From Chloroflexota bacterium (GTDB lineage Bacteria; Chloroflexota; JAJPGV01): a stretch of 64,000 nt of DNA. Positions 22,346 through 38,221 of this stretch are shown here, piece by piece (position 1 is the stretch's first letter; each line of letters opens with the position of its first letter). Both the position numbers and the translations under genes were made by a program. Where the stretch lies: the NCBI GenBank assembly GCA_021325635.1, contig JAJPGV010000027.1:1-64000 (forward strand), read 5' to 3'. A model generated the notes under the pieces. The model was not told where the DNA came from. It saw only the letters and a program-made list of their open reading frames with translations, and did no database searches.

Positions 22346-23377
22346 CTAGGGGAGGATATCCAGCGCCGAGCGATACGCCGCGGCGGTCTGCTCGGCGCTG
22401 CGCTCCCAGGTGAAGCGCGCGGCCTGAGCCGGGCCCTTTCGTCTGAGCGGCTCGGGATCGTCCAACGCCCGCAGCATGGCATCGGCCATGGCGCGCTCGT
22501 CGTGGGGATCGAACAGCAGTCCGGCGTCCTCGACGATCTCCGGCAGCGAGGACGCGTTAGACGAAGCCACCGGGCAGCCGCAGGCCATGGCCTCGAGCGG
22601 GCCAAGGCCAAAACCCTCGTATAACGACGGGGCGACGAACAGCTCGGCATGGCGCAGGAGCTCGACCTTGCGCGCCTCATCCATCGCGCCGAGGAAGCGC
22701 ACCCGGTTACCCAGCGCCCCGGCCAGCGATCGCACGTCGGGGAACAGGGGGCCTGGCTCGGGCACCTGCCCGCCGATGGCCAGCAGCAGATCGGGTCGGC
22801 GCGCAGCCACCAGGGAGAAGGCGCGCAGCAGCGCGGGCACGTTCTTGCGCTGGTCCATGCCACCGATGTAGAAGACGTAGGGCCGGTCCAGCGGCGGCGG
22901 TCCGGAGCGATCCGGCGTGTAGCGGGGATCGACTCCCAGGTACACCACGTGCACCCGTTCCGGCGCGACGTGCAGCCGATCGAGCACGTCGCGCCGGCTG
23001 CACTCGGAGTCGACCAGGATGGCCTCGGCGGAGCGGCAGGCCAGCGCCTGCAGCCAGGTGTAGGCTCGCACCAGCAGCGAGCCTCGATAGGCCGGCAGAA
23101 TCACAGGTATGAGGTCGTGGATCGTCACCACCGCCGGGCGGTCACGCTTGAGGGGCAGGGCGAAGTAGGGCCCGTGCAGCAGGTCAGCGCCAGAGGCGCG
23201 CGCCTGCCGAGGCCAGCCGGACTGCTCCCAGCGCACCTTGCCCACGTTGCCGAGCAGGCCAGGAGGCCGGTGCACCGCTACCTCGACGCCGCGCAGGTGC
23301 TGCAGCAGATGGGTGACGTACTGCCCGCTGCCGGTGTGCTCGTTGGCCAGGAAATAGCCGTTGAGCGAGACTCTCAC
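22346..23377 (-). CDS. Family 4 glycosyltransferase
   Basis: A 343-residue GT-B enzyme. The N-terminal acceptor half contains NEHTGSGQYVTHLLQHL and VVTIHDLIPV. The nucleotide-sugar half contains YVFYIGGMDQRKNVPALLRAF and the conserved E-x7-E segment APSLYEGFGLGPLEAMACGCPV. It should act at the cytoplasmic membrane face, adding one sugar to a growing lipid-linked unit. The GTG start at 23377 overlaps the TGA of the upstream glycosyltransferase (GTGA). Sugar and linkage are not predictable. Confidence 0.93.
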   Translation of the reverse strand: MRVSLNGYFLANEHTGSGQYVTHLLQHLRGVEVAVHRPPGLLGNVGKVRWEQSGWPRQARASGADLLHGPYFALPLKRDRPAVVTIHDLIPVILPAYRGSLLVRAYTWLQALACRSAEAILVDSECSRRDVLDRLHVAPERVHVVYLGVDPRYTPDRSGPPPLDRPYVFYIGGMDQRKNVPALLRAFSLVAARRPDLLLAIGGQVPEPGPLFPDVRSLAGALGNRVRFLGAMDEARKVELLRHAELFVAPSLYEGFGLGPLEAMACGCPVASSNASSLPEIVEDAGLLFDPHDERAMADAMLRALDDPEPLRRKGPAQAARFTWERSAEQTAAAYRSALDILP

Positions 23378-24483
23378 CGCCGGCCCAGCTCCTCGTAGAT
23401 GCCCTTCAGCTGCAGCGCCGACGATCGCCAGGAAAAGCGCTTGGCCTGCTCCAACCCCGCCGCCGACAGCTCTGCGCGCATGGCGGGCTCGGCAGCGAGG
23501 CGACGCACAGCGCCGGCGATAGCCGTGGTGTCCTCCGGGTCGAAGGTCAGCGCCGCGCTGCCGGTGACTTCAGGCAGACTGGAGACGTTCGACACGGCTA
23601 CGGGCGTGCCGCACGACATCGCTTCGAGGGCGGGCAAGCCGAAGCCCTCGTAGAGCGAAGGACAGACGAAAAGCTCGGCCAGGTTGTACAGCGCGGCCAG
23701 CTGCTCGTCGGACACATAGCCGGGGGCGACGACACGAGGAGCCGACAGCTTCTCCAGCACACCCTCGTACAGCCAGCCGCGGGCACCCACAATCACCAGG
23801 TGGTGGGGCAGATCGAGCGACTCGAAGGCATCGATCAAGCGCGCGATGTTCTTGCGCGGCTGCAGCGTCCCGGCAGTGAGGATGAACGGCCGCGGGATCT
23901 CGAGGCCGGCCAGCAGGCGCTCCGCTTCCCCGGCGGCCAGCGGACGGAAGCGCTCACTCGCAGCCGAGTAGACCACTTCCAGCTTGGCGGCCGGAACCCG
24001 GTACAGGCGGACGAGATCGTCTGCCGTTGCGCGTGAGTCCGCCAGCACGCGATCCGCGGCATGGACCGACCTCGGGACGGCGCGGCGCAGGTAGCGGCGC
24101 AGGCTGGGCACCGCGCACTCGGGCCGGATCTCGAACGTGAGATCGTGCACCGTGAGCACGGTGCGGGCGGATCGCACCGGAGCGAGCACGAAGTCAGGCG
24201 CATGGAAGACGTCCACACCGCCGGCCAGCAGATCGGCCCACAGCGGCAGCCGCAGACGCTGCCAGAGGACGGTCTGCCAGCGCTCAGGCAGCGGCAGCCG
24301 GGTCAGGTAGAGATTGGGCTGGGCGGGAACGGAGCTGAGGTCGGAGGCCGGCGAGCGTGCAAAGAGCAGGCTGTAGTAGTTGACGTCATCGAGCTCGAAG
24401 AGCGCCGTGAACAGCTCGCGGGTCAGCCGTCCGATGCCGGCCTGCTGGTTAAGGCCGGCTGTGTAATCGACGCCAATGCGCAA
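23374..24483 (-). CDS. Family 4 glycosyltransferase
   Basis: A roughly 369-residue GT-B enzyme, a paralogue of the one downstream. It opens LRIGVDYTAGLNQQAGIGR, has TVLTVHDLTFEIRPE in the acceptor half, then FILTAGTLQPRKNIARLIDAF and VCPSLYEGFGLPALEAMSCGTPVA in the donor half. The open frame extends far upstream, but that part is out-of-frame reading of the flippase gene. I chose TTG 24483 as the first plausible start after the flippase stop. Coupled to the next gene by a four-base overlap. Confidence 0.9.
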   Translation of the reverse strand: MRIGVDYTAGLNQQAGIGRLTRELFTALFELDDVNYYSLLFARSPASDLSSVPAQPNLYLTRLPLPERWQTVLWQRLRLPLWADLLAGGVDVFHAPDFVLAPVRSARTVLTVHDLTFEIRPECAVPSLRRYLRRAVPRSVHAADRVLADSRATADDLVRLYRVPAAKLEVVYSAASERFRPLAAGEAERLLAGLEIPRPFILTAGTLQPRKNIARLIDAFESLDLPHHLVIVGARGWLYEGVLEKLSAPRVVAPGYVSDEQLAALYNLAELFVCPSLYEGFGLPALEAMSCGTPVAVSNVSSLPEVTGSAALTFDPEDTTAIAGAVRRLAAEPAMRAELSAAGLEQAKRFSWRSSALQLKGIYEELGRR

Positions 24484-24554
24484 GGGTGAGCCGCTCGCTC
24501 GACCTGAGGATGACGCCGAGCTGGAGGAAGGTTCCTGGCCCTCGCCCGCGGCTG

Positions 24555-25589
24555 CTATCGCGCTCGCTTGCTGGTGAAGTACACCACGGCGCCGCTGACG
24601 ACAAGCGCCCAGTAGCTGACCAGCCGATCCATGATCACGATGGCCAGCGCCAGGCCCGCAGGCATGCCGACGAAGATCAGGATGCCGGTGAGACCGCCCT
24701 CCACCGCGCCAAGGCCGCCCGGAGTGGGGACCAAGGTGAGGATGGACGAGGTCACCATGGCAAAGATAGCGGTCAGGAAGCTGAACTGAGCGAGCTGCGG
24801 GCTGCCGCCGGCCAGGGCATGGGCCACGGCAAACAGGCGGGCCGCTTCGCACAACCAGGCCACGAAGGTGAAGGAGAGCACGATCTCGAGCGACTTGAAC
24901 GACCCCAGGGCGCCTTCCTCGAACTTGCGATAGATGCTCAGCACCCGCTCAGAGGCGAAGCGCGCGAAGACCGCCTCCCCAAAATGGCGCATGAACAGCA
25001 GCACCGCGGACATGAGCACGGCCAGCACGATGCCGATAGTCAGGATGAGGCGCACCTCATCGGGCAGCTTGTTGCCGAAGACGATGAGCCCGGTGATACC
25101 GAACGTGAAAAAAATGATCAGCGTGTCGATGATGCGCTCGGCGAAGATCGTGCCGACCGACTTGGACATGGAGACCTTCTCGTTCTTCTTGAGCAGATAG
25201 CCGCGGAAGACGTCGCCGATCTTGGCCGGGACCAGGCAGTTCACAAACCACGAGAGGAACAGGATCTCGGTCACTTCCAGCCGTGGATGGTTCTCTCCCA
25301 CGTTTCGCAGCAGCTGATGCCAGCGCAATCCCCGAGCCGGGAATGTCAGCGCGTAGGCAACGAACGCCAGCAGGTACACCGGCACGTTGACGCCGGCCAT
25401 GTACTTGAGCGCTGAAGAGAAGTCCCCCAGCTTGCTGAACACGGCCACCAGCAGCAGCACCGCCACCACGAAGGACAGGATCGTCTTGGAGTTGAATACC
25501 CTGCGCTTGAGCGAGACACTCTCGCCTTCGAGCTGACTCTCCGCGGGCTCGATCTTCAGGTCAGCAGCTCGCGACAGACTGTCGGCCAT
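24555..25589 (-). CDS. Lysylphosphatidylglycerol synthase TM-region/flippase-like protein (UPF0104)
   Basis: A 344-residue polytopic protein with about eight membrane helices. It resembles the flippase half of MprF: LVPAKIGDVFRGYLLKKNE near residue 110 and VPTPGGLGAVEGGLTGILIF near the C-terminus are the conserved sequences. In polysaccharide clusters such proteins are thought to move lipids or lipid-linked intermediates. No lysyl transferase domain is present. ATG 25589 overlaps the upstream stop as TGATG. Confidence 0.9.
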   Translation of the reverse strand: MADSLSRAADLKIEPAESQLEGESVSLKRRVFNSKTILSFVVAVLLLVAVFSKLGDFSSALKYMAGVNVPVYLLAFVAYALTFPARGLRWHQLLRNVGENHPRLEVTEILFLSWFVNCLVPAKIGDVFRGYLLKKNEKVSMSKSVGTIFAERIIDTLIIFFTFGITGLIVFGNKLPDEVRLILTIGIVLAVLMSAVLLFMRHFGEAVFARFASERVLSIYRKFEEGALGSFKSLEIVLSFTFVAWLCEAARLFAVAHALAGGSPQLAQFSFLTAIFAMVTSSILTLVPTPGGLGAVEGGLTGILIFVGMPAGLALAIVIMDRLVSYWALVVSGAVVYFTSKRAR

Positions 25590-27040
25590 CAGGCGGCCAT
25601 CAGCGACGGCACGATGGTGGTCGAAGGCTGTTGAGCGCTCCCCAGGCGTGCTACCGCGCCCGCGACTCCCAGCAGCAGGCCGAGCAGGACCGGCATCCCG
25701 TGTACGAACATGTTGTCCACCAGATTATGAATGGATAGGGCAGTCAGGCTGCCCAGCAGACCCAGCGCCACTCCGTACCATAGCCCTCGTGGCGCCCGGG
25801 CAACCGCCCTCCCCACCTCGCGGAAGGCAGCGACGACGAGCAGCAAATACGCGGCCAGGCCGACTAAGCCGGTCTCCGCGGCGGCGTTCAGATAGTAGTC
25901 GTGGGCATGGCCCAGCACGGTCTCCCAGCCTTGAGCCGCGTACTGGGGATAGGACGAGATGTAGTTGCCGATACCGACGCCCAGGACCGGATTGTTCTGG
26001 AACATGTTCAGGCCCGCCTGCCAGAATGCCAGACGCTGGACAGCAGAGAAGTTCTCGGAGGTGACGCTGTCCAGGCTGACTCCCGACAGGCCGAAGGCGG
26101 CCAGCACGCGGCCGCTGACGCCGAACGGGATGACGCCGAACACGGCGGCCAGGATCACCATGCTGCCCGCCAGCAAGCTCAGCCAGATCCACACGGCAAC
26201 GCGCTGGCTGGCGACAATGCCCATGACCAGCAGCGCCACGGCGAAGCCCAGCCAAGCGCCCCTGGAAAGGGTCGTTACCATGACCACCGCCACTGCCGCG
26301 GCCGCCAGCGCGACCCATACCCGCAGCCAGCGGCCGGGGGCGAACAGCGCAATGCCCACGAGGATGGGCAGGGTGAGGTTGAGGTAGCCGGCAAAGGGAT
26401 TGGGCTGGCCGAAGGTGCCGTAGGCCCGCAGGATCAGACCGCCTATGAGAAACTGCGGCGGCCCCAGTCGCAGCACTACCTGCGCGGCACCGATCGCCGT
26501 CTCGGCCAGCGCGCCCACGGTCAGGACCGCCAGCAGCGCCCCCACGCGCCGGCCACTGTTCAGCAACCCAACCGCCAGCCAGTACACAGCTGTGAATTCG
26601 AGCCATTTGGCCAGCTCCTTGGCGCTCTGCAGCTGGTCGTCGGCCTTGAAGAAGGACAGCAGCATGGCCGCCATGAGGACGATCATGGGCCTCAGCAGAG
26701 GAGCGCTGTGCCAGCCACCGCGCTCGATAGCCAGCTTCCGGGCGAAAAAGGCCACCAACGTCAGGGCAACCACGCCCTCGGTGATGGTGATGTTTACCTC
26801 GGTCGGGTCCGTGCCCCGCAGGCTCTGGAAGGGGACGGTCAAGGCCAGCAGATAGACGCCCACTTCGGGCTTGACCGTGACGAGGGTGACCGCGCCCACG
26901 GCGGCGATCGCCAGCGCGCTGTAGAGGGGCGGAGCGAGCGCTATGGCAGCGCCCAGCGCTGCCAGCAGGACCGCTGCGCCAGCACCGAGATGCGGCCGCG
27001 CCAACGAACGGCGGCCGATACCCAGTGCGCTGACGCTCAA
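25589..27040 (-). CDS. O-antigen ligase/polymerase (Wzy_C) family protein
   Basis: A 483-residue membrane protein with about 12 hydrophobic helices. The long extracytoplasmic loop carries the family motif NPVLGVGIGNYISSYPQYAA followed by GHAHDYYLNAAAETG, with the functionally important His. A cytoplasmic-side arginine-rich loop and TLSRGAWLGF are also typical. Such proteins polymerise or ligate undecaprenyl-linked glycans outside the membrane. The start is TTG 27040, overlapping the epimerase stop as TTGA. A second Wzy-type domain lies in the fusion protein two genes upstream. Confidence 0.92.
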   Translation of the reverse strand: MSVSALGIGRRSLARPHLGAGAAVLLAALGAAIALAPPLYSALAIAAVGAVTLVTVKPEVGVYLLALTVPFQSLRGTDPTEVNITITEGVVALTLVAFFARKLAIERGGWHSAPLLRPMIVLMAAMLLSFFKADDQLQSAKELAKWLEFTAVYWLAVGLLNSGRRVGALLAVLTVGALAETAIGAAQVVLRLGPPQFLIGGLILRAYGTFGQPNPFAGYLNLTLPILVGIALFAPGRWLRVWVALAAAAVAVVMVTTLSRGAWLGFAVALLVMGIVASQRVAVWIWLSLLAGSMVILAAVFGVIPFGVSGRVLAAFGLSGVSLDSVTSENFSAVQRLAFWQAGLNMFQNNPVLGVGIGNYISSYPQYAAQGWETVLGHAHDYYLNAAAETGLVGLAAYLLLVVAAFREVGRAVARAPRGLWYGVALGLLGSLTALSIHNLVDNMFVHGMPVLLGLLLGVAGAVARLGSAQQPSTTIVPSLMAA

Positions 27041-27978
27041 ACCTTCAGCTCCGTCCTGAACCAGGCAATGGTGCTCTTGAGTCCCTCCTCCAACGGCACA
27101 CGCGGCGTCCAGCCGAGTTGCGTGCGGGCACGGGTGATGTCCGGCCGCCGACGGGTGGGATCGTCTTCGCGCGGCGGAAAGAACTCGATCTTGGACTTGG
27201 AGCCCGTCAGCTCGAGGACCATCTCGGCCAGCTCCAGCAGGGTGAACTCCCCTGGGTTGCCGAGGTTGAACACCTGGCCGACGGTGTCCTCCTCGAACTG
27301 CGCTTTCAGGATGCCCTGGACCAGGTCATCGACGTAGCAGAAGCTGCGGGTCTGGGTGCCATCACCGTAGATCGGCAGCGCCTCGCCCAGCAGCGCCCTG
27401 CAGATGAAGTTCGGAACCACACGCCCGTCGTCGGCTTGGCTGCGAGGTCCGTACGTGTTGAAGATACGGATCAGGCGCGCGTCCAGGCCGTGAAGACGGT
27501 GAAAGTCCATCGTGATCGACTCGGCGTAGCGCTTCCCTTCGTCATAGCAGCTGCGGATACCGTGGGGGTTGACGTTGCCCCAATAGGTCTCCGGCTGGGG
27601 ATGCACCTCCGGCTCCCCGTACACCTCCGACGTCGAAGCCTGCAGGAAGCGCGCGGAATGGCGGGTGGCCAGGCAAAGCAGGTGGTAGGTGCCCTCGGCG
27701 TTCACGCGAGCCGTCTCGATCGGGTGCGCCAGATAGCCGACGGGGCTGGCGGGGCTGGCCAGGTTGAACACGGCGTCGACCGGCCAGTCTGCCGGCAGAC
27801 CTTCGATGATGTCGTGCTGCACGAAGGTGAATCCGGGACGTGAAGCGAACGACTCGATGTTGCGGCGCCGGCCAGTCAGCAGGTTGTCGACGCAGATGAC
27901 CTGATGTCCAGCGCCGAGCAGGGTTTCGCAAAGGTGGGAACCGATGAAACCGGCGCCACCTGACACCAGGATATTCAG
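27037..27978 (-). CDS. UDP-glucuronate decarboxylase-like NAD-dependent epimerase/dehydratase
   Basis: About 313 residues of the extended SDR family. The NAD site is VSGGAGFIGSHL, and the catalytic triad includes Ser/Thr in ASTSEVYGEP and YxxxK in YDEGKRYAE. The segments ETYWGNVNPHGIRSCYDEGKR and NTYGPRSQADDGRVVPNF closely resemble UDP-xylose synthases. The likely product is UDP-xylose or a similar pentose donor for the adjacent transferases. I extend the start to CTG 27978, giving NILVSGGAGF. AGGAG lies eight bases upstream, and the codon overlaps the preceding stop as CTGA. GTG 27966 would cut off the first beta strand. Confidence 0.88.
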   Translation of the reverse strand: MNILVSGGAGFIGSHLCETLLGAGHQVICVDNLLTGRRRNIESFASRPGFTFVQHDIIEGLPADWPVDAVFNLASPASPVGYLAHPIETARVNAEGTYHLLCLATRHSARFLQASTSEVYGEPEVHPQPETYWGNVNPHGIRSCYDEGKRYAESITMDFHRLHGLDARLIRIFNTYGPRSQADDGRVVPNFICRALLGEALPIYGDGTQTRSFCYVDDLVQGILKAQFEEDTVGQVFNLGNPGEFTLLELAEMVLELTGSKSKIEFFPPREDDPTRRRPDITRARTQLGWTPRVPLEEGLKSTIAWFRTELKV

Positions 27979-30900
27979 GGAACAGACTCCTCTCGGTGGG
28001 GGCTATCCCATTCTATCGTCTGCAGCAGGCCCACGGTCAGCCAGAAGACGAGCGCCAGGTCGACCAGGAAATAGGAATTGTCGACCAGCCCATGGACCAG
28101 CGTATCGACCATGCAGGCCACGAGACCGACGGCGGCGGCACGGGGGAAGCCGGCCGCCACCTTCAACACGCGTGCCGCCAGCCTGAAGAAGCAGACCTGC
28201 AGCCAGACCATGGCCGCGATGCCAAAGACGCCAATTCGGGTCCAGAAGTCGAGCGCCAGATCGTGAGGATGAGACAGATCGGGCTCGTTGCGTGCGAGCG
28301 GCAGGATGTAGCGCGGATACTGGTACAGGAAGTTGTCCAGGCCAACGCCAAAGATGGGGTGGTCGCGAATCATGGCCACCGAGGATCGCCACAACTCCAG
28401 CCGCGAGAAGCCGGTCGAGCCGGGGGTGAACTGCACGATCGACTGGATACGCCGGGCCTGCACCGAGCCCAGCGCCGCGCCTGCCAGCAGGCCGCCGCCG
28501 AGCATCAGCCCGAGCCAACGCCGGCCAGCAAAGGCGCCCACCACCAGCAGGGCCGCGAAGTCACCCAGCCAGGCTCCGCGGGTGAAGGACAGCACCACGC
28601 CTACGAGGGCCAGCAGGCCCATGGCGGCATAGGCTGCGCGCCAGCGCCGCGGCTCGGGCGCAAGCAGCGCCAGCGCAGCAGCGAGCGGCACGATCCGGCC
28701 CAGGTACAGGGCGAAATTATCCGGCGACCGGTACACGCCGACCATGCGCAGCACACCTTCGGCCTGGATGCCCTGGTGCCGAGCGTACTGCACCACACCG
28801 GCCAGGGCCACGACGGTGCCCCCAAGCAGCAGCGCCCGAAGCATGGGCCGCAGCGGAGGACGGACGGTCAGAAGCAGCCAGAAGAACAGCAGCGGCTCGA
28901 GCACGTCCGTCCGCCATTCACGCAGCGCGTAGCGCGGATAGTCGGCGGCGAACACGGAAGCCGTGGCCGCCGCAAAGAGCAGCAGCGCCGGCCACATGAG
29001 CTCGCTTCGCGGCCAGGCCCACTCGCCGCGCCAGGCGCTGCGCAGCAGCCAGGCGGCGATGCAGAGCCAGATGACGGCCTCGGACAGCGGCACATCCAGG
29101 GCGCCGATGTGGCGCGGCTGGAGGTAGAAGGGCGCCACCAACGGCACGAACACGAGGGCCAGGTCTGGCCGCCACAGGGCAGCGCCGGCAAACAACAGCG
29201 CGCCGAACAGCGCAACAGGCAGTGGACGGCCGGCATAGAACAGTCCCAGGCTGACGCCCAGCGCCGCCAGGGGCACGAGCAGGCCGCCGGGAAGAGCCGC
29301 CAACCGGCCGTTCAGCGCAGCGAGACGCTGGCTGGCGCCGCCCGAATAGCGCGCCAATCGCCGCGCGGTCATCGCCAGCGTCTTCCAGCCAAGCAGGACG
29401 AGCCCCAGCCCCAGTAAGATGCCACCGGCGTAGGCAGTCCGCTGATCCTTCGTCAGGCCCACCCCGAAGCCTTCGATCTGCACCGCCGGGCCGGACGAAA
29501 GCGGGCTCTGCCGGCCGCTCACGGTCAGCGTGAGCTGGTGCCGGCCGAAGGGCAGTCCAGCCGCGACAGCTACGCGACTGGCTGCCGGTGACGGAGCGTA
29601 CAGATCGACCGCGGCTCGCCCGGCGTCGTCTTTGGGCACCTCGGTCGCATACGTGGGGGAGCCGTCGACGGACAGGTAGGCGATGCCGAAATTAGGCCCG
29701 CGCATGACCTCCACGCTCGCCGCGCTGCCGTCGAAAACCAGCGTGGCGGTTGCAGCCGAGACCGGGCTCGCCATGCCTGATGGCGAAGGCGACGGCGCCG
29801 AGACCGTTTGCCACGCTCCGTCGTAGGTCACCGAGCCCTCGATGGCGGAATGGTTACCCGTGGCCGCCGCCGGCGGCAGGTGCATCACGTTCGCCAGCGC
29901 GGTGTAGACCGGCCGAGGCTGGAAGTCCTGTCCTACCAGGCCGAAGAACTGCGTCGGGTCGGCCGGCGCCGGCGCGGGATCCTGGAACAGCCAGACGTTG
30001 GCGACGCCCATCCAGGGCCACTCGCGGCGCATACGCTGGTAGGCCGCCACGGTGTAGCTCGCCTGCCGATCCAGGCTGACGCTCCCCCAGGGCGAGGGGT
30101 CTCCGGACCAGCCGGAGGGGAGCGCGTTCCAGCCAAACTCGCAAACCCACACCGATTTGCCGGCGTCGCCGTTGCGGACCATCACCTCCCGGTCCAGGAC
30201 GACACGGCCAACGTTGGTGTTGTGGCTATCGACAATGGCTTTGCGCGCGGCGTTGGGATGCAGCGGTAAGTCCTGCCATGGATCTTCGGGGCCGGCGCGA
30301 AGGCCATAGGCCTGAGCGCCCAGCACGTCGAAAAAGCCTTTGGCCCCGGCGTCGTACATCTGCTGCAGGTAGACGGGGTCCGGACGGTTCTTGGTGCAGC
30401 AGTCGGTCGTGGGCGTCAGCGCGGCCGACAGCACCACAATGCTGGGATCAGCCTCCTTGGCGCGCCGATAGCCAATCTGCAGCAGCCGGGTGTAGGCCAC
30501 GGGGTCGACCGGTTGGTAGCCCCAATCTTCGAAGCGGTTGGGCTCGTTCCAGATCTGCACGTAGTGGATGCGGCCCCGGAAGTGCTGCACGAAGGCGTAC
30601 ACAAAGTCGCCGTAGTCGTCGTAATCGATCGGCGGCGCGCTGTCCGCGCTGCCCGGGGCCCGCGCCCAGTCCGGCGGCCGTTCGAGCCGGGCAATGACCT
30701 GCAGGCCGGCTGCGTCTGCCGCGTCGACCAACCGGTCGTACTTGTCCCAGGCGCTCTTACCGTTCTTGTGGTCGAAGAAATCGCCCTTGGCCGAGATCTC
30801 GATCTCGTTCCAGCCGAACACCTGTCGGACCCAGCCGAAGCCGGCGCCGCCAATCATGTCGACGCTGCGCCGCAGATCCTCGTCACGCACGATCTTGTCC

Positions 30901-31076
30901 AGCTCGACGTTGACGCCGTATGGATTCGCCGGGAGATTGGAGGCGGCCGCGACGGGGACACCGTAGGCCACGCCGCGGGTCATGGCGTGGTCCAGCAGCA
31001 CTGTCGCCGCGCCGAGCAAGCACAGCAGCGACGCGACAAGCCACGAGCGGGAAGAAGGCGCTAAGGGAAGCCTCAC
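27975..31076 (-). CDS. Fusion of a secreted glycosidase-like domain to an O-antigen ligase/polymerase domain
   Basis: A 1033-residue protein. Residues about 12-30 form an anchor or signal helix. Residues about 50-400 form a clan GH-A TIM-barrel-like domain (GH39/cellulase-like) with the acid/base pair in WNEPN (E178) and the candidate nucleophile in CEFGWN (E313). A beta-rich module (about 415-540, with GPNFGIAYLSVDGS) follows. From about 545 onward it is polytopic, with about 10-12 helices and the Wzy_C motif FGVGLDNFLYQYPRY plus SHPHDLALDF. One protein therefore appears to hold both glycan-building and glycan-cleaving modules on the outer face of the membrane. It overlaps the next gene by four bases and shares its front half with the adjacent lipoprotein. 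Confidence 0.9.
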   Translation of the reverse strand: MRLPLAPSSRSWLVASLLCLLGAATVLLDHAMTRGVAYGVPVAAASNLPANPYGVNVELDKIVRDEDLRRSVDMIGGAGFGWVRQVFGWNEIEISAKGDFFDHKNGKSAWDKYDRLVDAADAAGLQVIARLERPPDWARAPGSADSAPPIDYDDYGDFVYAFVQHFRGRIHYVQIWNEPNRFEDWGYQPVDPVAYTRLLQIGYRRAKEADPSIVVLSAALTPTTDCCTKNRPDPVYLQQMYDAGAKGFFDVLGAQAYGLRAGPEDPWQDLPLHPNAARKAIVDSHNTNVGRVVLDREVMVRNGDAGKSVWVCEFGWNALPSGWSGDPSPWGSVSLDRQASYTVAAYQRMRREWPWMGVANVWLFQDPAPAPADPTQFFGLVGQDFQPRPVYTALANVMHLPPAAATGNHSAIEGSVTYDGAWQTVSAPSPSPSGMASPVSAATATLVFDGSAASVEVMRGPNFGIAYLSVDGSPTYATEVPKDDAGRAAVDLYAPSPAASRVAVAAGLPFGRHQLTLTVSGRQSPLSSGPAVQIEGFGVGLTKDQRTAYAGGILLGLGLVLLGWKTLAMTARRLARYSGGASQRLAALNGRLAALPGGLLVPLAALGVSLGLFYAGRPLPVALFGALLFAGAALWRPDLALVFVPLVAPFYLQPRHIGALDVPLSEAVIWLCIAAWLLRSAWRGEWAWPRSELMWPALLLFAAATASVFAADYPRYALREWRTDVLEPLLFFWLLLTVRPPLRPMLRALLLGGTVVALAGVVQYARHQGIQAEGVLRMVGVYRSPDNFALYLGRIVPLAAALALLAPEPRRWRAAYAAMGLLALVGVVLSFTRGAWLGDFAALLVVGAFAGRRWLGLMLGGGLLAGAALGSVQARRIQSIVQFTPGSTGFSRLELWRSSVAMIRDHPIFGVGLDNFLYQYPRYILPLARNEPDLSHPHDLALDFWTRIGVFGIAAMVWLQVCFFRLAARVLKVAAGFPRAAAVGLVACMVDTLVHGLVDNSYFLVDLALVFWLTVGLLQTIEWDSPHREESVP

Positions 31077-31137: not shown

Positions 31138-32724
31138 TCAGTCCCCTACCGTGAAGCCGTCGACAAAGGCGAAGGCGTCCTGTGAGGCCGGATTCCTCGA
31201 TCCGCTGACGGTCAGCTGCAGCACGTGCTTGGCGTAGCTCAAACCGTCGGCTATCGGCTGGTCCTGCGCGTAGAGACGCTGCGCCGAATAGAGGTCGAGA
31301 AAGGCCTTGCCATCGGTGTTCCGCTTCAGCTTATTCGGCACGGTTGACGACCCATCGATGGAGACGTAGGCGATGCCGGCGTTGGGCCCGGTGATGGTCC
31401 TGAGGCGAATGCTGCTGCCGCGGAAGGTGATGAGCAGCGTAGCGTTAGGCTTGCTGCTGGCCAGCAGAGCGCCGCCGCTGGCCTTGGGATCCAGCTGGAG
31501 CGTCCAGTTACTGCTGATCTTGCCGTCGTCGCTCGGCTGAAGCGCCGGGGACGTCTCCTCGTAGTCCCCGGGGAGGGCAATCTGCAGATCCTTGGTCTCA
31601 TTCTGGATCTCGGCGTACAGCGGGGTAGGTGAGAAGTCGGGGTTGACCATGCGGAAGTAGTACTCCGAGTCCGACGGCGGATTGCGCGTACCGTCCTGGC
31701 GGAAGTACCAGATGTTAATCACCCCCACCCACGGCCAGGAACGCGCCATCTTGATGGCTTCGCGGGTGTAATCGGCCTGCTGCTGCTCGGTGACACGGCC
31801 CCACTTCAGCCTGTCCGTGGGCATATCGGCCGGGGAGGCATTCCAGCCGAACTCGTCGAACCACACCGGCTTGGCGGCGTCGCCGCTGTCCTCCATGATC
31901 TTTCGCTCCAGCAATACGCGCTGGAAGTTCAGCCGGTCGGGATCGGGCGGGTCGGTAGGCGGCTGGGACAGGCCATAGGCATTGGCGGACATGATGTCGA
32001 AGTAGCTCTTGCCCCCCGCGGCGTAGACCCCCTTCAAGAAGTCCAGGTCGGACTCATTCTGGGGCGAATGCTCCAGCGTGATGGCCAGCGGCGCGCTGAG
32101 GATGATGGCGTTCGGATCGGCTTCCTTGGCCCGGGTGTAGCCCGCCTTGAGGAGCTGCACGTAGGCTGCCGGAGCGGGCGCCTTTCCCCAACCCAGGAAG
32201 ATGTTTGGCTCATTCCAGAGCTGGTAGTAGCGGATGCCCTTGCCCTTGAGGTGACTCACCACGGTGTAGACAAAATCGCCGAAGTCAGCCACGTTGTCGG
32301 GTGGCGCTTGCGGTTGGCTGTTGTCCGCACGCGTCCAGTTAGGGGGCGCGTCCAGGCGCACGATAGCCTGCAGGCCAAACTCGTTGATCAGGTCCAGACG
32401 CTTGTCGTACTTCTCCCAGGAGGGCTTGTTGAACTTTGTATCGACGTACTCGCCCTTGCGCTCCGGCTCGATCTCGAACCAGGGAACCTCCTGCTTGACC
32501 CAGCCGATGCCGGCATCCTTGATCATCTGCAGCTCGCGGCGCATCTTCCACTCCTCGACCTCACGATCGAGGAAGACGTTGACGCCGTACGGATTCACGT
32601 CGGTGAAGGGCACTGTGCGCAGCGGGAGCGGATTTGGGCGCTCACCGCAGGACACCAGGACCAGGCACAGCAAGACCGATCCCAGGACCTTGTGGATGGC
32701 GCGGCGCGGCGAATTCAACGCCAC
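31138..32724 (-). CDS. Secreted glycosidase-like lipoprotein, paralogue of the fusion protein's front half
   Basis: A 528-residue protein. The signal sequence ends in a lipobox LVSC (C26). A GH-A-like barrel follows with WNEPN (E172) and DEFGWN (E291). The C-terminal beta module contains GPNAGIAYVSIDGSS, almost the same phrase as in the fusion protein. Both catalytic Glu positions are kept, so hydrolase or transglycosidase activity is plausible. GTG 32724 is one start option; TTG 32718, overlapping the upstream stop as TTGA, is another and gives a cleaner signal peptide. The substrate is likely the polysaccharide made by this operon. Confidence 0.88.
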   Translation of the reverse strand: MALNSPRRAIHKVLGSVLLCLVLVSCGERPNPLPLRTVPFTDVNPYGVNVFLDREVEEWKMRRELQMIKDAGIGWVKQEVPWFEIEPERKGEYVDTKFNKPSWEKYDKRLDLINEFGLQAIVRLDAPPNWTRADNSQPQAPPDNVADFGDFVYTVVSHLKGKGIRYYQLWNEPNIFLGWGKAPAPAAYVQLLKAGYTRAKEADPNAIILSAPLAITLEHSPQNESDLDFLKGVYAAGGKSYFDIMSANAYGLSQPPTDPPDPDRLNFQRVLLERKIMEDSGDAAKPVWFDEFGWNASPADMPTDRLKWGRVTEQQQADYTREAIKMARSWPWVGVINIWYFRQDGTRNPPSDSEYYFRMVNPDFSPTPLYAEIQNETKDLQIALPGDYEETSPALQPSDDGKISSNWTLQLDPKASGGALLASSKPNATLLITFRGSSIRLRTITGPNAGIAYVSIDGSSTVPNKLKRNTDGKAFLDLYSAQRLYAQDQPIADGLSYAKHVLQLTVSGSRNPASQDAFAFVDGFTVGD

Positions 32725-34730
32725 GTCAACTGGAAGCTGGAGTAGGCTGCCGCAAGGGGGCGGCGGTCCAAGCTTTGGCCGTCGGTGGCCTCGTACGCAG
32801 AGGTCGCCATGGTGTGCTCCAGGGTAACGGTGTTGAGTCCCTCGGCATGGAACAACGTTGCCGGCAGAGACATGTTATACGGCGCCCAGTCGGTCACCAT
32901 CGAAAGCGTAGCCGCTGCCTGCCCGTTGACGGCAACGGTCAGCTGCTGCCCTCTGGGATAGGCCACGCCGACCAGCTGCAGGGTGGCGTCGGAAGGACGG
33001 TCCACCCAGAACCGTATCCGGGCCTGCAGGCCCGTCCATCGCGCCGGAAGGTCGGAGATTTCCTCGGGCCGGTACCAGCCGTCCTGCAGGTAGCGCACGT
33101 CCTCGGGCGTCCCGATGCGGACCGCGCTCGATGGCAGAACGAGATCCTGCGCCCGAACGCCAGGCAGCGGATGATAGACGGCCAGCCACACGCTGGCGGC
33201 CTTCGGCAGCACCAGCGGATCGCGCTGGAAGACGCGGGTGTCCGCGCCAACGAAGCTATCGGGCGCGTCGAAGCCCTCCTTGTCCAGCACCACCAGATTG
33301 CTGTACGCAGTGGAGGCAAGATCCCGATCTAAGGCCGCCCGGTCGAGCTCGTCGATGAGGTAGGTCCTGAAGCTCGGCGCCCGGTAGCGGACGGCGTTGT
33401 AGGAAGAGCCGGCGACCACCAGTGTGCTCTCAGGCGGAAAGGTCTGCTCGATGTAGGCGGCGGCCTGCTCCGGCGGGGCCGGGATCGTATCCAGGGCATG
33501 GACCAGCGGCCACGCGGCCCAGCCGAAGTACGCCGCCAGGCCCACACAGGAGACGGCGGCGAAGCGGCGCACCAACCGCCCGGCCGAAGCGCTCCAGCCG
33601 GCCCCGGCGCCCGCGAGCAGCAGCAGCATGGGCGGCACGACCGGCAGCACCTTGCGGGGATCGTCGGGCCGCAGGAGCAGCAGCATGAAGACCGCGTATG
33701 GCGCCAGCCAGGCAACGGCCAGCTGACGGACGGCAGGGCCATTGAGAGCCACCAGCACGACCAGCGCGCAAGCGAGGGCGGCGAACGCCGGCAGCCCCGC
33801 CTGCCGTGGACCTCCGAAGTATGCGCTGAAGACCGACCCGAACTCGGCAAGCCGGGTCCCCACGTTGCTGGCGGTCAGCGGACGGGCGAACAGGCTATCG
33901 GTGCTGCCTACGTAGCTGGACTGGCCGGCCAGCGAGGCCCAGGCCGTGGCGGCGTCGGGGAAGCTGCGCAGCAGAGGCAGTGCCCAGGCTGCACAGACGA
34001 GGACGAAGGCCGCGGCTCCGGCGCACAGCAGCAGGACTGCCCTGCGGCCGACCCGAAGCAGGCCGGGCAGCACCAGGAACAGCAGCGCCGACAGCGGGAC
34101 CAACGCATCCTGGGGTCGCACTCCAGCAGCGACCCCGGCGGCAGCGCAGCCCGACACCAGATACCAGAACGACGAACGGGGGCGTGCGTGCTGTCGCTCC
34201 GAGCTCGCCCCAACCGTGGCCCCACCGGCCGAGCGCCATGCGCGGTTCAGGAGGAAGACGGACAACACGGCGAAGGTGAGGCCAGGCACGTCGGACAGGG
34301 CCATCTCGCTGCTCAGCCAGAAGAGCGGCATCGTCGCCAGCGGCAGAGCGGCCCAACGAGCGCCCGAGTCGACGCCCAGCCCGCCCACCAGCAGGACGGC
34401 CAAGGCGCCGCATAGCGCGCTCAGAATGGTGAGCGCCGCCTGATGGTCGGGCACGGCCAGGCTTACCAGCCGGGCGAGAGCGATGTAGGCCGGGTAGCCC
34501 GGTGGCTGAGGCTGATTGTGCAAGGGATCGAAGTGGTCGATGGCTCGCGCGAAGTTGAACGAGTCGAAATCGTCCAGGGACACCGAGCGCGTCAGCCCGT
34601 ATGCAACAGCGGTCGCGGCGGACAGCGCCAGCACGGCCAGCCACAGCCATCTATTCGCCTCCCGAGGCCGCTGCGGCCGCCGTTTCGGCGCTTCTGCCGC
34701 CTCGAGTCCCACCACCGATAGCGGGCTCAC
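32715..34730 (-). CDS. GT39/ArnT-like membrane glycosyltransferase with C-terminal beta module
   Basis: About 671 residues with about 10-12 N-terminal membrane helices. The first extracytoplasmic loop holds the acidic motif SLDDFDSFNFARAIDHFDP, typical of polyprenyl-phosphate-sugar-dependent transferases. A soluble region from about 440 contains YLIDELDRAALDRD, and a lectin-like stretch closes the protein (LQARIRFWVDRPSDATLQLVG onward). I chose GTG 34730, which overlaps the comF stop as GTGA, because the longer frame reads through comF. It overlaps the lipoprotein gene downstream. Confidence 0.85.
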   Translation of the reverse strand: MSPLSVVGLEAAEAPKRRPQRPREANRWLWLAVLALSAATAVAYGLTRSVSLDDFDSFNFARAIDHFDPLHNQPQPPGYPAYIALARLVSLAVPDHQAALTILSALCGALAVLLVGGLGVDSGARWAALPLATMPLFWLSSEMALSDVPGLTFAVLSVFLLNRAWRSAGGATVGASSERQHARPRSSFWYLVSGCAAAGVAAGVRPQDALVPLSALLFLVLPGLLRVGRRAVLLLCAGAAAFVLVCAAWALPLLRSFPDAATAWASLAGQSSYVGSTDSLFARPLTASNVGTRLAEFGSVFSAYFGGPRQAGLPAFAALACALVVLVALNGPAVRQLAVAWLAPYAVFMLLLLRPDDPRKVLPVVPPMLLLLAGAGAGWSASAGRLVRRFAAVSCVGLAAYFGWAAWPLVHALDTIPAPPEQAAAYIEQTFPPESTLVVAGSSYNAVRYRAPSFRTYLIDELDRAALDRDLASTAYSNLVVLDKEGFDAPDSFVGADTRVFQRDPLVLPKAASVWLAVYHPLPGVRAQDLVLPSSAVRIGTPEDVRYLQDGWYRPEEISDLPARWTGLQARIRFWVDRPSDATLQLVGVAYPRGQQLTVAVNGQAAATLSMVTDWAPYNMSLPATLFHAEGLNTVTLEHTMATSAYEATDGQSLDRRPLAAAYSSFQLTWR

Positions 34731-35386
34731 GTACGCCCCTGGTCCTGTCGCGCCACGACCAGACCCCAGACCTGCGCCGCACCGGCGCGGAGCAGCGGCG
34801 TCGCGCAGGCGAAGAGCGTGCTGCCGGTGGTGCACACGTCATCGATCAGCAGCACCGTCTGGCCCGCAACCAGACCAGGGTCTGCGCAGACGAAGGCGCC
34901 TTTGACGTTGGTTTGCCGCTCGGCGCGGCTCCGGCCTACCTGCTCGCCGGTCTCACGCACGCGAGCAGCGGCGTCGACAACCGGCAAACCCAACCGGCGA
35001 CCAAGGTGATCCGCCAGAAGGCGAGCCTGGTTGTAGCCGCGCTGCCGCTCGCGTTTGGGGTGCAGCGGCAGCGGCGCGAGCACAGTGGCCGGCGGCAGCT
35101 GCCCCACCACCGGCTCCAGAAAGCCGGCCAGTGGCTGGGCCATAGCGCGGTGACCGTTGTACTTCAGCCGGTGGATGGCCAGGCGAACGGCGCCGTCGTA
35201 GCGAGCCGCGGCCCGAATGCCGTGGATGCCCGGGCGATCCCTGGCGCAGTCCTGGCAGCGAGGGCCGTGGCCCACTTCGCGCCCACAGCACTCGCACAGC
35301 GGAGGCGTCATGAGGTGAACCTCTCCCCGGCATTCGGCGCAGATCCAATCTCCCAGCCGGCGGCACTGCACGCAGCGCCGCGGCAA
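34727..35386 (-). CDS. comF: ComF-family phosphoribosyltransferase-like protein
   Basis: A 219-residue protein. The N-terminal zinc-finger-like part has CVQCRR, CAEC, CECCGRE and CQDC. The PRTase domain follows with APLPLHPKRERQRGYNQA and the PRPP-binding loop VLLIDDVCTTGSTL. ComF proteins are linked to DNA uptake and replication restart. The frame as given begins at TTG 35386. Upstream codons in the same frame encode HASLRSALDLLLPRRC, which resembles normal ComF N-termini, so the true start may be a CTG near 35425. It is the first gene of the polysaccharide operon by position. Confidence 0.9.
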   Translation of the reverse strand: MPRRCVQCRRLGDWICAECRGEVHLMTPPLCECCGREVGHGPRCQDCARDRPGIHGIRAAARYDGAVRLAIHRLKYNGHRAMAQPLAGFLEPVVGQLPPATVLAPLPLHPKRERQRGYNQARLLADHLGRRLGLPVVDAAARVRETGEQVGRSRAERQTNVKGAFVCADPGLVAGQTVLLIDDVCTTGSTLFACATPLLRAGAAQVWGLVVARQDQGRT

Positions 35387-36547: not shown

Positions 36548-37936
36548 CTAGAAGAGCGAGTTGATGAACAGTCCCTGGGCAAACAGCTGCGCATACAACA
36601 GGGCGCTGAGCGTGTGACTGGCCAGCAGCTGCTGCGGGGTCACCAGGCCCGACGACAGCGAGACCGCAGGCACGAACTCCGGGGCGCCCAGCCGTGAGGT
36701 CGGCCCGGAGACGATGTCGGCGGCGAACCGGCCGATGGTCGGAGCCAAGCCGTTGGGCGAGCCGATCACCTGCTCCGCATAGCCCGGCCGATCGTCGAAC
36801 ACGCCGGCGAACTCGGCCCGGTCCAGCACCGGGTCGCCGTTGGCGTCGAGACTGATCCCGACCTCGCTCATGGCCGGTTGCAGACGCTCGAGCAGGGCGC
36901 TGCAGTCGCTGGCAAAGGCCTTGGACAGATACCGAGCGTTGTCGCGAATGATCTGGCGCAGCAGCCGCAGCGCTTCGATGAGGTGCGCCACGGCGCCGGC
37001 GACCGCGAGCTGATCGGGGCCGACGTTCACGGTCAGCTCGACTCCAGGCGCGGCCCGATGCAGCGCCAGCTGCACCTTGCCTCGACCGAGCACGATCACG
37101 TTGGTGGGCGAGATGGTCCGCACGCCATTGAGACGGTAGATCACGTCATGTGCCGGACGCACGACGTGGCCGGCGCCGCTGACCCTGACCAAGGAGCCCT
37201 TGTAGTCGGTGAGCGAGAAGGCGCTGCCGGCGCCGGTTTCGTTGCCGGTCAGGGCAATCTGCACCGTACCGGTGGTGGGTCGAACGAGCATAGCCAGCAC
37301 GCCGAGGTTGGCATGGTTGACGGCCGCCGCGAACTTGTTGAGAGCCAGATCGTGGCTGTCGCCGTCTTCGATATCCACGGTGATAGTCCGACCGCCGATG
37401 CGAGTGCGCAGCTCGACCTTGTAGTCGCCGGCAGGGAGAGCGATCGGAGCGTCCGCGGGGAGGAGCTGGCCGAGATTCTCCTGTGCGGCGGCCACACCCT
37501 CGACGACGATCTTGTAGCGGCCGCTGCCGGATCCGGCCGTGGCGATACCCGTCACCACGGCCGGGTCCGAGCTGACCACCCCAACCTGTTGGAAGGCGTT
37601 GAAGGCATTGTTGGGCGAGAGGGCACTGGCCGCGGCAGCGACCGATCCGGCCGCCAGCGCGAGGTTGGACAGAGCCTGGCCGACCTGCTGCTGGTACTGC
37701 TCTTGCAGCAGCAGCGGCGGCGGTCCGCTCAGCGCTTGCGCAACGAGCTGCGCTGCACTGGGCAGCCGAGCGCCAAAAGGCAGCTCATGGCCAGCCCGAT
37801 CCTCGGTGCTTTTGGTCAGCGCCTCCACCAGCGTTTTGTCGCTGATGACCGGCAGCCGCGGCAGCTGCCGGTTCGACGCCGGCTCCAGCTCGTCGCTGTC
37901 CAGTGGAGCGCGACGCGGGACGGGCAACCTATCCAT
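36548..37936 (-). CDS. FliD-like (flagellar hook-associated protein 2-like) protein, isolated
   Basis: A 462-residue protein resembling the filament cap family. The middle contains SSDPAVVTGIATAGSGSGRYKI and VVEGVAAAQENLGQ, similar to the FliD N-terminal domain. YRLNGVRTISPTNVIVLGRGKVQLAL resembles the second FliD segment (NG...S.SN.v....gv.l.L). C-terminal coiled regions are present, but the usual terminal helix is not clear. There is no secretion signal, as expected for a type III substrate, yet no flagellar gene is in the window. I set the start at ATG 37936 because the longer frame upstream is Arg/Pro-rich and not convincing. Confidence 0.65.
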   Translation of the reverse strand: MDRLPVPRRAPLDSDELEPASNRQLPRLPVISDKTLVEALTKSTEDRAGHELPFGARLPSAAQLVAQALSGPPPLLLQEQYQQQVGQALSNLALAAGSVAAAASALSPNNAFNAFQQVGVVSSDPAVVTGIATAGSGSGRYKIVVEGVAAAQENLGQLLPADAPIALPAGDYKVELRTRIGGRTITVDIEDGDSHDLALNKFAAAVNHANLGVLAMLVRPTTGTVQIALTGNETGAGSAFSLTDYKGSLVRVSGAGHVVRPAHDVIYRLNGVRTISPTNVIVLGRGKVQLALHRAAPGVELTVNVGPDQLAVAGAVAHLIEALRLLRQIIRDNARYLSKAFASDCSALLERLQPAMSEVGISLDANGDPVLDRAEFAGVFDDRPGYAEQVIGSPNGLAPTIGRFAADIVSGPTSRLGAPEFVPAVSLSSGLVTPQQLLASHTLSALLYAQLFAQGLFINSLF

Positions 37937-38156
37937 GTGACATGTGTGCCTAGACCATACCCTTATCCGAGTATCGTCCGCGGACGGGCGAGGCCGCACC
38001 TGGCAGGGCAACGGACACGTCCTCCGCCTCAAATATGGTGTTGGTTTCAGGTCTCGCAGTGCAGGGCGAGGCCGGCGCGAGGCCGCGCTGCACTGTCTCA
38101 CAGTGCAAGGCTCTGCGCACCTGACGATGCTCCCCCACGTCCAAGAACTGCTCGGT

Positions 38157-38165
38157 TGGTATAAT
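38157..38165 (+). promoter_or_regulatory. Extended -10 promoter element for the peroxiredoxin gene
   Basis: TGG directly before TATAAT (38160-38165) makes an extended -10 element. No good -35 lies 17 bases upstream, which is acceptable for extended -10 promoters. It would start transcription about 50 bases before the ATG at 38222. An inverted repeat around 38056-38106 (GCAGTGCAG with CTGCACTGT) lies upstream. Confidence 0.55.
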
Positions 38166-38221
38166 TGATATGATCGCCTCACCAGCTCCATCGACAGAAT
38201 GCGTTAGTAAGGAGAAAGAGC

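Follow-up and report, generated by a model that had tools for sequence, protein, structure and literature searches.

PslG of Pseudomonas aeruginosa (PDB entries 5BX9, 4ZN2 and 9G17) is a hydrolase that is encoded in, and acts on, its own exopolysaccharide system. It is reported, in the portions of PMC11912335 drawn on here, as a retaining endo-glucosidase classed in GH39, with Glu165 as the acid-base and Glu276 as the nucleophile. Psl production is described, in excerpts of PMC6813494 and PMC9075953, as influenced by the inner-membrane pool of PslG and by its catalytic residues. A cutting enzyme encoded with synthesis genes is also described for the AlgL and PelA types (excerpts of PMC9075953 and PMC11912335).

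The gene considered here lies in a polysaccharide operon within the window, by which we mean the whole 64,000-nucleotide stretch of Chloroflexota DNA that was analysed. Its features are as follows.

31138-32724, minus strand: predicted stand-alone lipoprotein of 528 residues (signal sequence with lipobox, GH-A barrel and C-terminal jelly-roll)
32647-32724, minus strand: predicted signal sequence, lipobox Cys at residue 26 (translation reading and regular expression)
31603-32604, minus strand: GH39-like (beta/alpha)8 barrel with WNEPN (acid/base) and DEFGWN (nucleophile)
31141-31545, minus strand: C-terminal beta jelly-roll module, CE2_N-like, with a carbohydrate-binding-like fold

The frame is open, starts with GTG and encodes 528 residues. 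The N-terminus, MALNSPRRAIHKVLGSVLLCLVLVSCGERPN, consists of a basic n-region and a hydrophobic stretch followed by LVSC and then G; LVSC occupies residues 23-26 and was recognized by direct reading and by a regular expression as a fair signal-peptidase-II pattern. The product is probably a lipid-anchored protein. The initial annotation had called it a membrane-tethered lipoprotein, and the n-region, the hydrophobic stretch and the lipobox Cys near the N-terminus are present, so that a tether is predicted for the window gene. According to the regular expression, which overlooks some plausible lipoboxes and accepts some doubtful ones, a lipobox occurs in two of 37 two-domain orthologues of the lipoprotein clade (window included) versus 18 of 27 barrel-only orthologues, in nine of 60 members of the other stand-alone group and in one of 49 fused proteins. 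Most lipobox-negative members start with an N-terminal hydrophobic segment (assessed by eye). Judged from these N-termini, membrane tethering looks general across the barrel family, and predicted lipoprotein status marks the window gene and the barrel-only branch rather than the family as a whole. At L039:2413-5028 a Lon protease gene lies ahead of a barrel-only lipoprotein gene, and genes of similar length are found there in related loci.

Residues 27-528 were modelled from an alignment of 59 sequences (mean pLDDT 94.8, pTM 0.93), and the model is a (beta/alpha)8 barrel of clan GH-A. PslG was the top match by sequence profile (E 3.4e-20), by Foldseek (E 5.9e-24) and by VIA-align against PDB structures (Z 32.9, 3.1 Å over 315 residues); GH39 enzymes rank after it in the PDB comparisons. 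The glutamates of WNEPN and DEFGWN align with Glu165 and Glu276 of PslG, respectively. No Pfam cut-off was passed by the window lipoprotein, for which only a sub-threshold GH113 match was obtained, and the GH39 profile PF01229 (E <= 0.01) matched 12 of 59 relatives, the window lipoprotein not being among them. The C-terminal module modelled alone is a beta jelly-roll-like sandwich (pLDDT 93.9) with fold matches to BT_2959, a xanthan lyase, a xanthan-binding module and mannan esterases. CE2_N (PF17996) was matched at E <= 0.01 by 30 of 40 modules, the window module alone not matching. Among plasmid records, the most significant match of the lipoprotein (E 1e-29, 27% identity) is a Methanomethylovorans (archaeal) 'disaggregatase related repeat-containing protein' (L238:4881-7433). 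A distant barrel relative on a Paracoccus plasmid (L240:753-5954) has genes for an O-antigen ligase family protein and a flippase in its vicinity.

The neighbouring features, listed from the upstream gene onwards, are given below.

32715-34835, minus strand: multi-spanning membrane protein upstream of the lipoprotein and in the same unit (GT-C-like by eye only)
27975-31076, minus strand: fusion protein of 1033 residues (N-terminal hydrophobic anchor, paralogous barrel, the same module and a Wzy_C polymerase/ligase half)
29892-30929, minus strand: fusion barrel, with catalytic WNEPN and CEFGWN intact
27037-27966, minus strand: NAD-dependent epimerase/dehydratase, operon gene
25589-27040, minus strand: second Wzy_C protein, stand-alone, operon gene
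24555-25589, minus strand: LPG_synthase_TM / flippase-like domain protein
23374-24852, minus strand: GT4 glycosyltransferase
22346-23377, minus strand: GT4 glycosyltransferase

The fusion gene lies downstream of the lipoprotein gene after a gap of 61 nt, and the membrane-protein gene at 32715-34835 overlaps the lipoprotein gene by 10 nt. The genes downstream of the lipoprotein gene are on one strand and closely packed by coordinates, and the gene does sit inside a polysaccharide operon, the setting originally assigned to it. The 32715-34835 product had neither a Pfam nor an NCBIfam match at 0.01 and showed no similarity to the PMT_2 gene from L065. The C-terminal half of the fusion is Wzy_C (2.4e-19), of the O-antigen ligase/polymerase family PF04932, a domain that the 31138-32724 product does not contain. 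BLASTP aligned the lipoprotein with the N-terminal half of the fusion at 346 bits (E 3e-112, 40% identity over 505 residues). The alignment spans the barrel and the C-terminal beta module, both of which the initial annotation had recognized as shared, and two adjoining copies this similar cannot be chance. Upstream of the operon, a 547-residue open reading frame (window 36548-38191, minus strand) shows weak FliD_N / flagellar-cap similarity. The window genome (G000) has nine places with a Wzy_C match on seven contigs, several of them in frames of 900-1100 residues besides the fusion.

The same two domains in adjoining genes at 40% identity would suit the history first proposed for this pair, in which a local duplication was followed by fusion of one copy to the polymerase. 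The phylogeny of the barrels argues otherwise. In a 92-barrel tree all 46 fusion-type barrels (the split L131 counted) lie on one side of a branch with support 91.7. In a 178-barrel tree, support for the fusion clade, to which the stand-alone L232 also belongs, is 97, and the clade that contains the window lipoprotein has 64 rows (support 93); L076 and L136 were omitted from both trees as long branches. A careful tree of 60 rows separates the lipoprotein clade at 100/100. AU tests rejected sisterhood of the two window barrels (p 0.0077 and 0.0088) and the placement of the window lipoprotein in the fusion set (p 0.0005), and the local-duplication history is accordingly highly improbable. Members of many families are found in the lipoprotein clade and likewise in the fusion clade, and each window barrel has its own orthologues across the phylum; given this and the rejected sisterhood, the window barrels are deep paralogues. 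They nevertheless belong to one family and do not group in distant ones.

For rooting, PslG was supplemented with five less distant barrels taken from plasmid records. A tree rooted on these six unites the fusion barrels with the other stand-alone group (99/97) and leaves the lipoprotein rows outside. Alternative orders of the lipoprotein, fusion and third groups gave AU p values of 0.067 and 0.111; a topology that unites the lipoprotein and fusion clades and leaves the third group apart was not rejected (p 0.067), and the order of the three is not fully settled. An ancient duplication in the ancestor of the families of the phylum is possible. The outside-rooted and careful AU trees were calculated from hand-picked sets of 61 and 60 barrels, respectively. 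A root on PslG alone, which placed the fusion barrels basal, was discounted because the PslG branch is very long; nine long rows were omitted from that tree and near-identical rows were thinned. A single clade of fused Wzy halves was rejected (AU p 1.8e-6), with seven changes at fewest. The Wzy tree leaves out nine contig-edge, partial or very divergent rows (L080, L083, L095, L113, L044, L116, L122, L127 and L107), and its Wzy-2 rows were reduced to six. Since the fused Wzy halves are scattered and the fused barrels form nearly one clade, the trees point to an old fusion that was later lost or split in places, or else to domain exchange.

Gene order, for which the initial annotation had suggested a survey, was compared across 400 Chloroflexota genomes. 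A barrel match at E <= 1e-25 was found in 150 genomes and a match to the Wzy half of the fusion at E <= 1e-40 in 100; among the 101 Wzy matches listed, 57 (counted by eye) lie in open frames of at least 968 residues. Profile searches and family codes placed GH::Wzy_C fusions in 20 family-level groups of the phylum. The separate and the fusion form both exist: a lipoprotein-type gene accompanies a separate wzy in, for example, L053, L055, L060, L061, L064 and L066, and a fusion in the window, L063, L078, L089 and L037-L048. The 84 wzy-1 genes tallied comprise 46 fused, 35 unfused and three that are undecidable at contig edges (L116, L122 and L127 were dropped, and the selection did not include L080). 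The gene immediately upstream of wzy-1 encodes a stand-alone barrel in 16 of the 46 fused and 12 of the 35 unfused cases, or 17 and 13 by inspection, as L049 and L062, which have over-extended starts, were not credited with an upstream barrel gene. Gaps between the barrel gene and wzy-1 are below 60 nt in 21 of 28 cases. Unfused operons often share the downstream order epimerase, Wzy2, flippase-like protein and GT4. Profile searches also identified module-only genes of 229-269 residues directly ahead of unfused wzy in five loci (L067:4234-4962, L121:4209-4958, L124:6474-7235, L128:6320-7129 and L135:6207-6896); L067, with a module-only gene and a BM gene both upstream, was tallied under BM. 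In L131 the barrel and wzy are encoded by two genes. These five loci and L131 look like remnants or splits of fusions.

The lipoprotein clade also extends beyond such operons. An operon gene (any of six) was present within the fetched flank of four of 27 lipoprotein-clade loci (duplicates of the wzy-1 tally excluded). Many members, chiefly from Anaerolineae, are not near any wzy, and the family is therefore not tied to the operon everywhere; in the two orphan loci inspected (L138 and L147) the barrel lies among housekeeping genes. Orphan members that adjoin unrelated genes, and the presence of beta-xylosidases among GH39-like enzymes, would fit a nutritional or cell-wall glycosidase that stands beside the operon by chance. 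We consider this unlikely, as a barrel gene is found directly upstream of both fused and unfused wzy-1 in many families, mostly with the short gaps given above, and in-frame fusions join paralogous barrels to enzymes of polymer synthesis. A scan of genome contigs with the lipoprotein as a single query found nothing. With an alignment as the query, the best 80 of 561 matches were all assigned to Chloroflexi/Chloroflexota or to classes or orders thereof.

Both window barrels retain the catalytic Glu pair. Among relatives, both glutamates are retained in 62 of 64 lipoprotein-clade barrels and in all 60 of the other stand-alone group (122 of 124 together), and the count is 31 of 49 for fused-type barrels, or 27 of 46 for the first set alone. 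In the other 18 fused barrels at least one of the two residues is missing; some have lost the nucleophile, others the acid-base, mostly by a change of NEP to DEP. The description of both proteins as hydrolases thus holds for the window pair as far as the catalytic residues go, but the 18 altered fused barrels make it unfit for all members. In L050 (3992-5245) and L051 (12032-13288) the nucleophile Glu of the lipoprotein-clade barrel is replaced by Ala, and each of these loci carries an intact fused barrel; L078 shows the reverse, with the fused barrel altered and the stand-alone barrel intact. An association between catalytic loss and a missing adjacent stand-alone gene (Fisher test, 15/1 versus 12/18, p 0.0004) is not claimed, because the losses amount to only two changes on the fused-barrel tree and independent pairs gave no support.

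Two further kinds of fusion were found. The barrel and module are joined to PMT_2 in one frame of 1129 residues (L052:3610-6999) and to GT2 in one frame of 999 residues (L054:4039-7038). Each occurs in one genome, in draft assemblies of about 50 and 120 contigs, so that an assembly error is possible for either. Unfused barrel genes adjoin a GT2 match in G104, G208, G128 and G184 and a match to the PMT_2 half in G216. Tentatively, and with considerable doubt, the barrel and jelly-roll may be regarded as a portable unit that accompanies polymer-making membrane enzymes in Chloroflexota and has joined no fewer than three kinds of them (Wzy_C, PMT_2 and GT2) by fusion; in a large lineage the Wzy_C-fused barrel, short of catalytic residues, would serve as a chain-holding guide or length ruler and the separate tethered barrels would cut.

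For the window gene, we think it somewhat probable that the product resembles PslG in being a retaining endo-glycosidase, is tethered to the membrane and processes the operon's polymer beside the fusion, the two proteins being old paralogues and not recent duplicates. The analysis establishes the domain content, the predicted fold, the pair of catalytic residues, the gene order, the separation in the trees and the residue losses; we infer the surface location, lipidation, endo-activity and substrate, and the division of labour with the fusion. A lipid-anchored, outward-facing barrel with a carbohydrate-binding-like jelly-roll would work beside the GH::Wzy_C fusion and cut the nascent or finished polysaccharide, thereby setting the chain length or releasing the chain. 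Through the fused copy, a barrel of this kind would be held at the polymerase, and the two would be separately inherited paralogues kept together. The fused barrel probably only binds or guides the chain in the part of the phylum where its catalytic residues are lost. By analogy with PslG, for which the membrane pool and the catalytic residues matter to Psl, it is most likely the operon's own chain that the lipoprotein would cut, at the membrane. A retaining catalytic pair is generally known to permit transglycosylation, and two Wzy_C proteins in one operon suggest more than one transfer step; the barrel might instead transfer the Wzy product chain to a wall polymer or to another chain. This would require an acceptor to be postulated, and PslG, the nearest characterized relative, is reported as a hydrolase in the text taken from PMC11912335; we rate transfer as quite unlikely.

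Comparison of many genomes suggests that barrel cutters trim or guide surface polysaccharide during synthesis, and the polymerase physically contains a glycosidase-type domain in 20 family-level groups of a single phylum. If the tentative reading of the fused barrel as a ruler is true, the phylum contains a polysaccharide polymerase with a built-in chain-length ruler derived from a hydrolase. It is not settled how Wzy-type polymerases set chain length, particularly in systems that lack an evident co-polymerase, and a role in length control is testable because fused, split, barrel-less and catalytically altered versions occur naturally. A narrow search of open-access titles and abstract openings, with subscription journals largely outside it, found no description of a glycosidase-Wzy_C fusion.

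PslG, the best structural match, shares with the lipoprotein the barrel fold, the catalytic pair, a place within an exopolysaccharide operon and membrane association (predicted for the lipoprotein), although identity in the structural alignments is only 16-19%. The CE2_N-like jelly-roll and the predicted lipid anchor set the window lipoprotein apart from PslG, and to our knowledge no PslG-Wzy fusion exists. GH39 beta-xylosidases (e.g. PDB entries 2BFG and 1PX8) have the same clan GH-A barrel and retaining pair but match the model less well (VIA Z 28.6 and below), and we know of none that is a member of a polymer operon. The AlgL- and PelA-type enzymes have other folds, and none is known to us as a fusion with a Wzy_C protein. 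The arrangement described here is real, old and conserved in kind, and is a new variation on a known theme, that of hydrolases encoded in polysaccharide operons.
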